This document shows, in pieces, positions 32,249-40,268 of a stretch of DNA of 64,000 nucleotides. Every line of letters begins with the position of its first letter. Positions within the stretch are counted from its first letter, which is position 1. This stretch comes from Halichondria panicea (lineage: Eukaryota > Porifera > Demospongiae > Suberitida > Halichondriidae), in contig NC_087384.1 of assembly GCF_963675165.1 (NCBI RefSeq), forward strand, positions 1,510,501-1,574,500, read 5' to 3'. The notes below the pieces were generated by a model. The model saw only the letters and a program-made list of their open reading frames with translations, did not search any database and was not told the DNA's origin. Made by a program: the position numbers and the translations under genes.

Positions 32249-32342
32249 TAGATGGGCGTGCCTGTCCCCAGCCATAAATTTTATGGCTGGGGCACCCCAT
32301 TCGCATGGGTCAGCACTGGTTAATAGTAGTCTTATGGTCAGC
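32249..32342 (+). repeat. Left terminal inverted repeat of KDZ element
   Basis: About 94 bp matching 40196-40268 in inverted orientation, including CGCATGG, AGCACTGG and AATAGTAGTCTTA. The outer 12 bp are identical. The left copy has about 22 extra bases forming part of a near-perfect 27-bp hairpin (CCCCAGCCATAAA, one T, then its complement), absent from the right copy. Confidence 0.88.
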
Positions 32343-32485
32343 ATTGGCACTGCATGTAGTCAAGGCTGGTTATAGTCAGATCACTTGACCTATGAACTCA
32401 AGATATACCACAGCACACGGTTTGCACTGCACTGCACTACTCACTGGACTGGACAACGCAGCTGGTTGGTACAAGGTGGAGAGTA

Positions 32486-35400
32486 GTGCTAGTGATCAGT
32501 AGAATCATGACTTCCCGAACAGTGATCACAATATCCCAGAGAGAATTTCTTGTGAGGAAATTTGAAGAAGGGATGCACAGTTGTGGACAGAACACTCTGA
32601 ATGCTCGACAAGCTGCTGCTACTGCGACTGGCTTGACATTAAATACTATAAACGTGAGATTGACCTGTCAACATTGGTATCAGGATGATGTATACATGCA
32701 GTCTCTAAAATTGAGTCTGGTCGTGCTATATGCGATATGCTCTATACTCAGTATGATATAGTCAGGCTAGTCACTGTGTGCACATTGCTAGTCGGCTAGT
32801 CTGTATGTACGTTGCTTAGTAACAGTATTGATCATAGTCAACTGGTTAGTTACCTTGTAGACTGACGTCACGTGACCAAAATTGCAGAAAGCGCAATGCT
32901 TTCTTGGCATATATGCGCATTCTGCTAAACTGTTTTAGGATCTTTTTTGAACATAAGCAGTCACTTAGAGATGTAGAGAGTATTAAATTTTGTATATGTA
33001 GAAAGTAATTGTGTATAGGATTAGCACAATCATATTTATAGGAAAGGTTGAAGATCGGGATAAGTTGTAACAGTTATGTCGACTTTTTAAGGAGTCTTGA
33101 GCTTGCTTGTGGCTTTACCTTGGACGCCTTAGACTTCTTTTTAGGTATGCGGTCCATATCTGATACCTATACGTCAAAAATGTACATTGTCACTAACAAG
33201 CTGTCATCAAATACATGCATTTGTAATTAAACTTCGTCTAGCCCCTATATACAATTAGCTATACAAATACTCTCTACATCTCTTACCGTCTGCTTATGTC
33301 CAAAAAAGATCCTAAAAAATTGCCAAGTAAGCATTGCGCTTTGGACAGCAATTTTGGTCAAGTGACCAGTTAATTGCGTTTTACCTCTGCCTTTCTACTA
33401 GCATTTGCGTGAGAGTTGAGTAAATTACCAGTATATTGATCGTAGAGTCAACATAGTTTATTATCAAGGGTTAATAAATAGAAGAGGGCATGCAACAGCT
33501 TGCGAGCAAAAACTGTAAGTGCATGAGCGGTGGAATTTACTGGAAAAGTACAAACTACTTCTGATTTTGTGTAAAGTACATGTGCAGATAGCTATAGAAT
33601 GCAGTTTTGCTCGCACATTAAACTAATAGTGAGTTGCATGCCCTCTTCTCTTTATCAGCCCTTGCAGCTAATTAAGGTACAGATATTTTCACAGTTCACC
33701 CTGTACACATCACCTGCTGTAAAGACTAGCAGTATTGATTGTAGTCAAGCATTGGTTACTTTTAGGCTGTAGCCTGACACATGTAGCTACTACTTGGTAG
33801 TAGCATTGATTGCAGTCAATATTGGTTACGTGTATACACACTGCCTTAGTATTATATGGACTTTAATTGGTAGTAGTATTTGTAACATGTACATGCAGTC
33901 GGTATTGGTTACACATGAGATGGCTTTAGCTTTGTCCAATTATTTAGTCTGGGATCATTAATTAGTGTGTGTGTGTGTGTGTGTGTGTGTGTGTGTGTGT
34001 GTGTGTGTGTGTGTGTGTGTGTGTGTGTGTGTGTGTGTGTGTGTGTGTGTGTGTGTGCGTGCGTGCGTGCGTGCGTGTGTGTGTGTGCGTGTGCGTGTGC
34101 GCGTGCGTGTGTGTGTGTGTGCGCGTGTGTGTGTGTGCGTGCGTGCGCGCATGCATGTGTGTGTGTGTGTGTGCGTGCGTGTGTGCGCGCATGTGTGTGT
34201 GTGTGTGTGTACATGTGTGTACATGTGTGTGTGTGTGTGTGTGTGTGTGTGTGTGTGCGTACAGCAACATACACACTACCAAAACTAAATACGCACATGC
34301 ATACATGCAGTATTGGATAAACAAGAAACGGCACACCAGCTCTCATTGTGACACTGTTCCTCGTGCTAGAACTAAAAAGCTGTCCACACGTAGGAAATTA
34401 AGGCAGGCCTCTGGCTTTAATGTCTTCAGTAAAGAGTTTCACAAACAACAAGGTACGTAGATTTTATGGTGGATCGTTTATTTTAATGACATGCATGCCG
34501 TATATAAAGTTGTGTATTCACTCACTATTCAGCAAATGCACGATTATATTAGATCTCAAAGGGAAGACTCTCTCAAATAAATCAAAATTGATGGCACAAG
34601 CTTGGAGAAAAATCAGCACTGCTGATAAGGAAAAGTACAATGCAGTAGCAAACGATATTGAGGGTAGCAATGAGGAGGAGGATGAGGAGGAACTAACGCC
34701 GGAAAAGAAGAGGCAGCTCATTGTTCGGGTTGCTAAGAGACATCAGGGAGATGTAGGTGTTGTGAGTACTGTATGTGCACGTAGACGGCACATATAATAT
34801 TGTATCTTATCACCTAAAATTAATTTTGTGAACATAATTATTATGATGTTGCGACAGGTCCAATTTATGCGAGCTAAGGAAATAATTACTTTTACTATGA
34901 GGCGGGCTTATAAATGATATAATGCCTATAATGTAGACAACACACTAAACCCTAACATGTGGCTATATTTACCTTGTGCACTTATACAGGCCAATCTGCT
35001 GCAATCACTTGGTTGTGAGATGGCTACAATGATGTTTGTTGATAAAAAGGTTTTAAGTGTGGGAACCACAGATGGGAAAAAATTTCTTCAATCTCACCCT
35101 GCAATCCTGTCATCCTTCAGCTCCTACTTTCTGTATGGTAAGGCTTTATAAGTAAATGTAATGTAGATACCATTAATTATTTGATTATGTAAAACTGATT
35201 GCTTTGTGTGCACGACAAACTGTACACCTCGTTTCTCTAATTATTACTACAGATGACCTGTCCAAGAAACAATTTGCTACCCCAGCCACTGCAGCCTCGT
35301 CAAGTACAACCAGTCTCAATATAAATTCCAGCTCATTCAATGTTACCTCAACAAACGCAAACCCAATCAACACCACCTCATCTACTACATCCAAAGCTGT

Positions 35401-35776
35401 TATTTCCACTGTGAAGAAATCAACCACTAAAACTACAACCAAAGCAGCACCTTCTGGAATCTTGTCCAATCAAGCTATTTCTAACACTGATACCGTCAGT
35501 ACGATTTTTATGAAAGGCAGAGATGGAAGTATTGTTGCGACAGGTACAGTGCTTCCTGGTGTACATAAAACCATTCATGGTTGTCCTTGCCAAAAAGATT
35601 GTGAACCGCTTTCCGTTGTGGATGTTGTACAAGTTGGTGCTGAAGCTTGGTTTGAAGATGCTTTTGGGGAAAATAAATTGAGCACAGGGATCATCGTGGA
35701 ATGGCCGAGCAGTATGATATCAAACGTAGCTGATGTCTCCCCACTTCATACAAGAACTAATCGCAAACGTAAATAA
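32486..35776 (+). CDS. Transposon cargo: homeodomain-like plus HMG-box-like DNA-binding protein
   Basis: Five exons: 32486-32653, 34311-34452, 34562-34761, 34990-35137, 35253-35776, in frame, 393 aa. Residues 14-65 look like an atypical homeodomain: a first helix [15 protein letters not shown], a second around [12 protein letters not shown], and a recognition-helix-like YWINKKRH placed by splicing across a 1.66-kb intron. Residues 80-130 resemble a truncated HMG box ([28 protein letters not shown]). An acidic stretch, a conserved-looking segment ([18 protein letters not shown]), a long Ser/Thr linker and a C-terminal domain with [16 protein letters not shown] follow. A second ATG at 32507 could be the start. 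It lies wholly inside the transposon, so I infer a role in element recognition or regulation; I cannot name a family. Confidence 0.72.
32869..33364. mobile_element. Foldback element nested in the KDZ element
   Basis: About 500 bp with two inverted arms of roughly 130-150 bp: the left begins CACGTGACCAAAATTGC and the right ends GCAATTTTGGTCAAGTG. The arms share GCGCAATGCTT, AGGATCTTTTTT, ACATAAGCAG and AGAGATGTAGAGAGTATT. The loop has no gene. It lies in intron 1 of the cargo gene. Confidence 0.8.
33466..33663. mobile_element. Second foldback element nested in the KDZ element
   Basis: About 200 bp with inverted arms: AAGGGTTAATAAATAGAAGA at the left, and a right arm whose complement reads AAGGGCTGATAAAGAGAAGA. 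Both arms continue into GGGCATGCAAC and TGCGAGCAAAA. It is non-coding and sits in the same intron of the cargo gene. Confidence 0.75.
33965..34260. repeat. Long (GT)n microsatellite
   Basis: About 300 bp of GT repeats with GC and AC interruptions (GCGTGCGT, ACATGTGT), in intron 1 of the cargo gene. Open frames here on either strand (poly-Cys/Val, poly-Thr/His) are artefacts of the repeat. Confidence 0.97.
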
Positions 35777-39200: not shown

Positions 39201-40032
39201 TCACACTTGCAGAAGGTTACGCACACACAATGCTGGAAACCTGTAAGTCATTGGATTCTTAGACACAGGCTATATCAGTGTAGTTAAACAAATACCTTTA
39301 GGATCAAGACAAACAACTTCTTTTATGTAAGTTGTACAGCAACAATGAAGTGCTGGAAAGGTTCTCGACTGCTTGAAATAGTATGGGTGAAGCATTCCAT
39401 TCTGTAAAATCAGATCGCATGCATTTAATAATCACAAATGTACAGCAGTATGTTTGATTAGTGCATACTTTCCAGAGAAAAGGTCGATGAAAAATATTTG
39501 TCAGAGAGTGTACTGAGTCCACATGGTTGGCACAGTAGTATGCCTGTGGTCCACAATCCCGGCAAATTGCAACAGCGGGTTCTTCACACTCGGCACACAC
39601 AGAACAAGGGGAAGGAATTCCGGTTTCTACACTGGCACGTAGCAACTGGACACGCACTTCAGCCCAGTTGTCAGCAGCCTTCTGCTGTCGCTTCTCATAA
39701 GCACTTGAGCTCACCGTGTCTGGAAAAGTGGTGTCATCCTGCCCCGAGCTCTCTGGATCATGATCATACCACTCACTACTGATTAATACATCTGGAGAGT
39801 CGCCACTGATAACATCAGTAGGCCTGCTCGCTCCATGTACATCTACTTCTTCAGCTTCATTTTTATCACTGGAGAGGAACCTAGTACTGCTGGAAGAATT
39901 AACAGAAGAGGATTCTGGCACAGCAGACAAAGAGAGAGACTTTTTATGCACAGCACGACGTTTTGAAGGAGATACTTCAAAGTAGGAGATAGATTGAGAC
40001 TTAGGCTTCACACTTATCCTTCTCTTGCTCAT
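36214..40032 (-). pseudogene. KDZ transposase, one-base frameshift
   Basis: Twelve exons, 5' to 3': 40032-39469, 39401-39296, 39240-39020, 38881-38835, 38778-38697, 38636-38468, 38350-38214, 38128-38023, 37957-37874, 37814-37634, 37374-37297, 36836-36214. The N-terminal part ends in a Cys cluster (CSVCAECEEPAVAICRDCG, then YYCANH), the CxC domain typical of KDZ transposases. Core motifs follow: DGVFGLCRKKSAG, GDTLRSKSRYAALDETAVFG, CRHEFPQRFL, YDIACLLETHLK, HVYGHCAFCQ and DGEAMERLWSYLRRF; the last contains a probable catalytic acid of the DDE set. Lengths sum to one base more than 799 codons. The surplus is in the sixth exon near 38545-38560, where the frame of GLCRKKSAG runs to a stop while the next motifs continue one base over. 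Possible causes are inactivation, assembly error or frameshifting. Confidence 0.85.
36880..37110. mobile_element. Dispersed foldback repeat, copy 2 (KDZ transposase intron)
   Basis: Same family and orientation as 14030-14280. Shared blocks include AATCTGATTGGCTAAAGG, GTGTTCTATCCAACTTAGAA, TAGGAAGTTTCCACAT and TTGGGCTTCTAAATCAT. It sits in the last intron (36837-37296) of the transposase gene, so it inserted into the KDZ element or was carried with it. Confidence 0.78.
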
Positions 40033-40195
40033 GGCCGGCCAGCTAGCTAGCTAGCTAGCTATAGAATATATAGATCTAGATCTAGATCTACCTGAGAGCT
40101 CAGTGCACCACATAGATAAAAGATCTCGCTACTTTAGATTAAACTCGGTATAGACTATAGTCAATAGTCACTACTGCATGCTTTGCAGCTTACAT

Positions 40196-40268
40196 GCTGA
40201 CCTTAAGACTACTATTATCCAGTGCTAACCATGCGAACCCCCTGGCTGGGGACGGGCACGCCCATCTA
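40196..40268 (-). repeat. Right terminal inverted repeat of KDZ element
   Basis: About 73 bp, the inverted counterpart of 32249-32342. It ends CACGCCCATCTA. Compared with the left copy it lacks the extra hairpin arm. Confidence 0.88.

Follow-up and report, generated by a model that had tools for sequence, protein, structure and literature searches.

A two-gene KDZ-group transposon of the sponge Halichondria panicea and the sites at which it inserts

Where does a KDZ (Kyakuja-Dileera-Zisupton) transposon begin and end, which genes belong to it, and how is the place of its insertion chosen? These questions are raised by a locus of the sponge Halichondria panicea that lies in a 64,000-nucleotide stretch of contig NC_087384.1 (assembly GCF_963675165.1, positions 1,510,501 to 1,574,500 of the forward strand), here called the window, to whose numbering two-number coordinates without a contig prefix refer. 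An initial annotation, made from the letters of the window, had described a complete 8-kb KDZ-type transposon at 32249-40268, bounded by inverted termini and a 9-bp flanking duplication and carrying, besides the transposase, a second convergent gene for DNA-binding domains. The host genome (131 Mb, 39 contigs) was searched, and 19 stretches were fetched for comparison. The locus, in our view, probably holds a two-gene DNA transposon of the KDZ group that directs its insertions to a sequence, with the partner gene encoding what may be a subunit of the transposition complex.

Extent of the element and its copies

The termini recur. A search with the left 96 bp gave 29 genomic matches, so its recurrence is not due to chance, and about 18 copies of the same family (family A) are present, 94-99% identical to the window copy in pairwise alignments (aligned columns). 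The last exon of the partner gene, used as a query, gave 26 matches, which fall on close copies at 18 places and on two distant relatives. The KDZ family search returned 59 exon matches.

These copies set limits to the element that differ from those first drawn. Similarity starts at position 45 of the unit originally outlined (47 in L022) and, in most family-A copies that keep that end, stops at 7995-7997; in L016 it extends to 8020, because that copy is flanked by the end of a similar repeat. In a side-by-side display, the copies start CACCCCATT and finish CCCCCTG, and their flanks diverge directly outside; deviating tips are found in L009, which ends in TA, in L022, which begins with GG, and in the eroded right tips of L017 and L022. 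Given these similarity limits and differing flanks, the KDZ element proper is therefore 32293-40244, a unit of 7,952 bp that is flanked by a 7-bp duplication of its own, GCTGGGG.

The features of the boundary region are as follows.

32240..32248, no strand: TAATTAGGT, outer MITE (miniature inverted-repeat transposable element) 9-bp duplication, left (read in sequence)
32249..32292, plus: outer palindromic MITE, left part, split by the KDZ element (copy comparison, MITE matches)
32286..32292, no strand: GCTGGGG, KDZ 7-bp target duplication, left (copy comparison, script test)
32293..32344, plus: left terminal inverted repeat, starts CACCCC (inverted-repeat scan, copy comparison)
40194..40244, minus: right terminal inverted repeat, ends CCCCTG (inverted-repeat scan, copy comparison)
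40245..40251, no strand: GCTGGGG, KDZ 7-bp target duplication, right (copy comparison, script test)
40245..40268, plus: outer MITE, right part, opening with the 7 bp of the right-hand KDZ duplication (copy comparison, MITE matches)
40269..40277, no strand: TAATTAGGT, outer MITE 9-bp duplication, right (read in sequence)

The outer arms (32249-32274 and 40243-40268; 26 nt, 96% complementary) and the 9-bp repeat exist as the initial annotation described them, but they do not bound the KDZ element. Together, the outer 44 bp and 24 bp make up a palindromic MITE, which occurs elsewhere without a KDZ element (L024-L026), in L024 with a 9-bp repeat of its own. When the window flanks are joined minus one duplication, the product is a 61-bp palindromic MITE that is matched over its full length at 12 places (77-91% identity). 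The outer arms and the 9-bp repeat are those of a host MITE that the KDZ insertion has split, and the element is 68 bp shorter than first proposed. Virtually no credence is left for an element bounded by 32249 and 40268 with 9-bp duplications: real as its arms and repeat are, the outer bases are missing from other copies, whose flanks differ right after CACCCC/CCCCTG, and the same bases are found elsewhere as a MITE, so the comparison of copies already refutes it. A perfect 18-nt inverted repeat lies immediately outside the MITE, at 40283-40336.

Duplications do recur across copies, as had been expected, but their length is 7 bp rather than 8 or 9: exact 7-bp duplications flank all nine of the copies with both tips intact that were tested by script. 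An 8-bp duplication was considered and rejected; the match runs past 7 bp only in the window copy, by chance. Empty sites, all of them paralogous and within the same genome, show the insertion points before the element arrived. The site of L009, compared with its duplicated host segment, has an empty counterpart with a single AAACAAC; the sites of L009 and of a family-C element (C17; family C is described below) lie in duplicated host sequence, each segment being the other's empty site. The joined site of L012 is spanned without the element in 40/40 of the matches listed (92-99% identical), and that of C4 in 38/40 of those listed (89-99%), the remaining two being its own flanks; the sites of C2 and L016 are also spanned in repeats, with ~9-12 extra bases.

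Two arrangements among the copies deserve mention. At C4:5397101-5412656 two family-A elements (L013 and L014, 98.4% identical) stand head to tail with CCCTGGA occurring three times, which indicates that the second element inserted exactly at the duplication of the first. The right 7-mer of L020, AGCTTGC, is the left 7-mer of L021, a copy ~290 kb away on the same contig (C1:16.70 and 16.99 Mb), and this identity suggests recombination between the copies.

A KDZ transposase and its convergent partner

The presence of a KDZ transposase gene is confirmed. It is a multi-exon gene on the minus strand, for which eleven exons were defined:

39469..40032, minus: exon 1, start, B-box-like cysteine motif (domain scan, exon model)
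39296..39401, minus: exon 2, CxC cysteine cluster (exon model)
39020..39240, minus: exon 3, CxC1/CxC2 cluster above Pfam cut-off (domain scan, exon model)
38835..38881, minus: exon 4 (exon model)
38697..38778, minus: exon 5 (exon model)
38468..38636, minus: exon 6, KDZ domain start, frameshifted by a private 2-bp deletion (copy comparison, exon model)
38214..38350, minus: exon 7, KDZ domain (domain scan, exon model)
38023..38128, minus: exon 8 (exon model)
37874..37957, minus: exon 9 (exon model)
37634..37814, minus: exon 10, KDZ glutamate region, LTDGEAMERLW (domain scan, exon model, alignment)
37435..37524, minus: exon 11 (exon model)
36214..36855, minus: open frame, C-terminal part of the transposase gene, outside the 11-exon model (open reading frame list)

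Exons 1-10 of copy L017 match the KDZ domain (PF18758) at 146.1 bits against a cut-off of 26.6, and the KDZ exons of the window, taken singly, reach 39.2 and 30.7 bits. A cysteine cluster precedes the transposase domain and is likewise above the Pfam cut-offs in L017 (CxC2, 31.1 bits vs 27; CxC1, 30.1 vs 26.9). The glutamate region could be aligned across family A and the two further families described below, B and C, while the two aspartate regions were compared by eye only; these acidic residues may have the catalytic roles of their counterparts in KDZ transposases. A tblastn search of exon 1 against plasmids gave no match, and the KDZ and partner profiles, when run over viral contigs, returned pattern stretches and no relative.

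The window copy is a complete KDZ transposon in that it is full-length and has both genes, but its transposase is frameshifted by the exon 6 deletion, which is private to it when set against all 13 other copies that have that stretch. With an open partner and a frameshifted transposase, this copy could therefore be moved only by transposase made elsewhere.

The second, convergent gene is also borne out. It lies on the plus strand and has five exons with GT-AG introns, which encode 386 residues and are open in the window copy:

32507..32653, plus: exon 1, start and first part of the homeodomain-like segment (exon model, profile)
34311..34452, plus: exon 2, end of the homeodomain-like segment, start of the HMG-like box (exon model, profile)
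34553..34752, plus: exon 3, remaining HMG-like box, acidic stretch (exon model, Pfam)
34990..35137, plus: exon 4, related to a family B exon (34% over 50 aa; exon comparison)
35253..35776, plus: exon 5, Ser/Thr-rich stretch, C-terminal domain without known kind, stop (genome search, exon model)

The two genes travel together. A partner lies within 1.5-3.5 kb in 16/16 family-A copies in which the KDZ glutamate exon is preserved, a count into which 23 KDZ places and 22 partner places were entered and from which C10:3936823, a match that covers the glutamate region with no partner match nearby, was left out. The partner copies at C1:16703908 and C7:1167108 are without the glutamate exon because they are truncated. 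Distant relatives of the partner's C-terminal domain occur at C1:4162914 (L062; 52%) and C1:4212346 (38%), with no KDZ near either among the 23 KDZ places entered. Intron 1 of the partner contains a large imperfect inverted repeat (32867-33366; arms of 52, 22 and 19 nt), found in other copies too, and a long TG-rich microsatellite (33966-34258).

Families B and C are diverged KDZ families that have the same two-gene layout, CA..TG ends and 7-bp duplications. The duplication of family B is exact at C9 but not at C13; that of family C is exact in 4/6 cases, is found in a fifth after 4 extra bases and is missing from a 2-kb element. The CA..TG ends hold in family A with the exception of L009 and L022, and inverted arms are present in all three families, the ends being imperfectly inverted CACCCC..CCCCTG in family A and CACCC..GGGTG in B and C. 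On the partner's strand family C has a PHD finger (36 bits vs cut-off 24; C1:7264400-7274528, L056, L057, L060, L061) and a weak Ulp1-like match (14.1 vs cut-off 20.7); these exons of the C partner, and the last exon of the B partner, were assigned by position only. Besides C10:3936823, further diverged KDZ matches lie at C5:3815748, C5:2009148, C5:2031478, C7:4562124 and C10:6163412.

In its N-terminal part the family-A partner is 29% and 18% identical to those of B and C, and the layout shared by three diverged families suggests a long association of the partner with KDZ. The first half of a three-family profile matches 2da4 (E=2e-5), DUX4 (0.0093), engrailed (0.041) and also LMX1A, and the second half matches TFAM (0.0086), UBF and HMGB1; the profile also matches unrelated chains (RpoD, DnaJ) at E 0.17-0.4. 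We take 2da4 to be a homeodomain, its listing saying only hypothetical protein. Pfam gave no homeodomain for families A and B, Homeobox_KN at E=0.16 for family C, HMG_box_2 at 17.6 bits (family A) and 16.1 bits (family B) against a cut-off of 22.4, and no match in the last partner exon. Judged from its sequence, the partner is a probable DNA-binding protein with homeodomain-like and HMG-box-like segments, as the initial annotation had in part foreseen: the three-family profile picks out both segments, and both fall below the Pfam cut-offs.

A motif at a fixed distance from the insertion

Insertion of family A is non-random, with GGGCG(TR) 19 bp away on one side. Of 25 sides, 9 have a GGGCG word whose start lies exactly 19 bp from the insertion (binomial 7.5e-26 for a background of 3.2e-4 per position, which was drawn from the window and L024-L026 only and ignores that repeats carry the word). 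With three later sites or sides added, GGGCG is at 19 in 10/18 sites, or in 12/18 if one mismatch is allowed; over offsets 8-59 the sole other exact match is at 39, in the other arm of the window MITE. The motif over the 12 sites is GGGCGTRKC, and C12, which was fetched after the pattern had been noticed, fits it at 19. It may stand on the left or the right of the insertion, so the orientation of the element is irrelevant. In the window it is placed as follows.

40259..40263, minus: target motif GGGCG, CGCCC in plus-strand letters, at a distance of 19 bp from the insertion (motif count)

Targeting is also favored by the stacked pair at CCCTGGA and by two insertions of opposite orientation at GATCTCT, each in a copy of the same host repeat.

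What reads the motif is less certain. Six motif sites were searched (window, L010, L012, L016, C2 and C4), and five of them proved to be within repeats. The window and C4 elements entered their repeats 24 bp inward from the end. For C2, L012 and L016 the similarity breaks off at 22-25 bp; at L012 it is taken up again after ~100 bp or more in 17 rows, and the break there may thus not mark a repeat end. The element might then simply nest in high-copy repeats, drawn by chromatin or hot spots, with the motif a by-product of the ends that the repeats share. We judge this unlikely, since the distance is constant at 19 bp across otherwise different sequences and since a search with the L010 site matched nothing but its own two flanks, which marks that site as single-copy. 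A host protein offers another route: SP/KLF-type zinc fingers bind GGGCGTGG, GGGCGGG and CACCC boxes, and the variants GGGCGTG, GGGTGTG and GGGCGGG would suit a protein of this type that tethers the complex, with no reading of the motif by the proteins of the element itself. Such tethering seems improbable, as position -13 is A in 4/12 motif sites (GGGCGTA, a poorer fit) and family C is without the motif in the same genome. We incline, tentatively and at not quite even confidence, to the reading in which the KDZ two-protein complex itself homes to GGGCGTR and inserts at a fixed distance from it, using the ends of other transposable elements.

Proposed mechanism and relation to known elements

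In the mechanism that we propose, the KDZ transposase would excise and insert the element by cut-and-paste, and the partner would bind or bend DNA at the ends or the target as the second subunit of the transposition complex, a role modelled on the Myb/SANT protein of two-gene Harbinger elements. The DNA-binding part of the complex may dock on GGGCGTR and set the cut 12-19 bp away. The GGGCGTR word occurs near the ends of some high-copy repeats, so the family would often land in them, perhaps a fairly harmless location.

Several observations weigh against this account. The 11-exon transposase core is open in 2/14 copies (L010 and L022), the partner in 3/16 (window, L017 and C2), and no copy has both genes open. 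Three of the 12 copies with both ends located are without matching 7-mers (9/12 exact), namely L017 and L022, with their eroded right tips, and L020, with mismatched 7-mers. Exact GGGCG is missing from 8/18 family-A sites, and neither L013/L014 (one target) nor L011/C6 (one repeat) count as independent. Families B and C, although their partner is similar, lack the motif at 19: family C has it in 0/10 sides, and family B, viewed like the C1a element of family C by eye and outside the 10 counted sides, shows none at that distance. The homeodomain and HMG segments of the partner stay under the Pfam cut-offs. Four copies (L010, L019, L020 and L021) have in common a deletion that takes out partner exons 2-3 in whole or in part, which indicates that this segment is not needed in cis. 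Finally, the pooled ratios of nonsynonymous to synonymous polymorphism (pN/pS), 0.37 for the transposase and 0.68 for the partner, count in favor of the account, but the partner value is near relaxed and few distinct variable sites lie behind both (16 synonymous and 34 nonsynonymous; 17 and 43).

The last two points bear on whether the partner belongs to the transposition complex at all. If it were a passenger gene that the element had picked up, perhaps one that regulates transcription of the host or of the element, the spread of copies without exons 2-3 and a partner pN/pS above that of the transposase would be as expected. We nevertheless find a passenger somewhat unlikely, since the same N-terminal layout stands convergent to KDZ in three strongly diverged families. 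The spread of the deleted copies, and the lack of the motif in families B and C despite their similar partner, argue against a simple scheme with the target set by the HMG part or by the conserved N-terminus of the partner.

Among known systems, which are cited here from excerpts of the papers, KDZ elements share with the present one the KDZ domain and CxC cluster above Pfam cut-offs and a multi-exon transposase; the homeodomain/HMG-like partner and the fixed-distance target motif set it apart. Zisupton and Dileera have 8-bp duplications (PMC12730594), whereas family A has 7 bp, and the excerpted account of nematode Zisupton describes multi-exon elements with no duplications detected (PMC9297572). 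Fungal Kyakuja (Kyakuja-1_LB and -2_LB) is described in the part cited as having 7-bp duplications, 5'-CA..TG-3' ends, a TET/JBP gene and no inverted repeats (PMC12730594). The present families share its duplication length and ends but differ in having inverted repeats; no match to the TET/JBP domain was found in the exons scanned. Compared by description, the present lineage is best read as one that resembles Kyakuja in its ends and in the length of its duplication, but that has inverted repeats. Two-gene Harbinger elements likewise combine a transposase with a second DNA-binding protein, with tail-to-tail genes in Harbinger (PMC12477816) and a Myb/SANT partner in Nuwa (PMC12730594), but transposase, duplication length and partner domains are all unrelated. 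The KDZ giants of Ectocarpus and other algae also have additional genes, with pseudogenized transposases moved in trans and lengths of up to 30 kb (PMC12477816); the present element has 8 kb and one fixed partner. In the literature, judged mostly by titles and the starts of abstracts, we found no KDZ element described as having a homeodomain/HMG partner or a target at a fixed distance.

Elsewhere in the window are a TPR-CHAT reading frame of 1,555 aa (3770-8434), AAA and TPR frames in tandem (22474-25179), and WWE and RanBP1 reading frames. Together with the introns, the TPR-CHAT, WWE and RanBP1 frames mark the host as a eukaryote.

What is known of KDZ elements concerns chiefly their transposases and, in fungi, the TET/JBP genes that they carry as cargo. 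Three families in one sponge genome now combine 7-bp duplications and inverted repeats with a different partner, which has DNA-binding-type domains. Most cut-and-paste elements pick their targets loosely, and a motif at a fixed distance from the insertion is a direct handle on the choice of site by a transposase complex.

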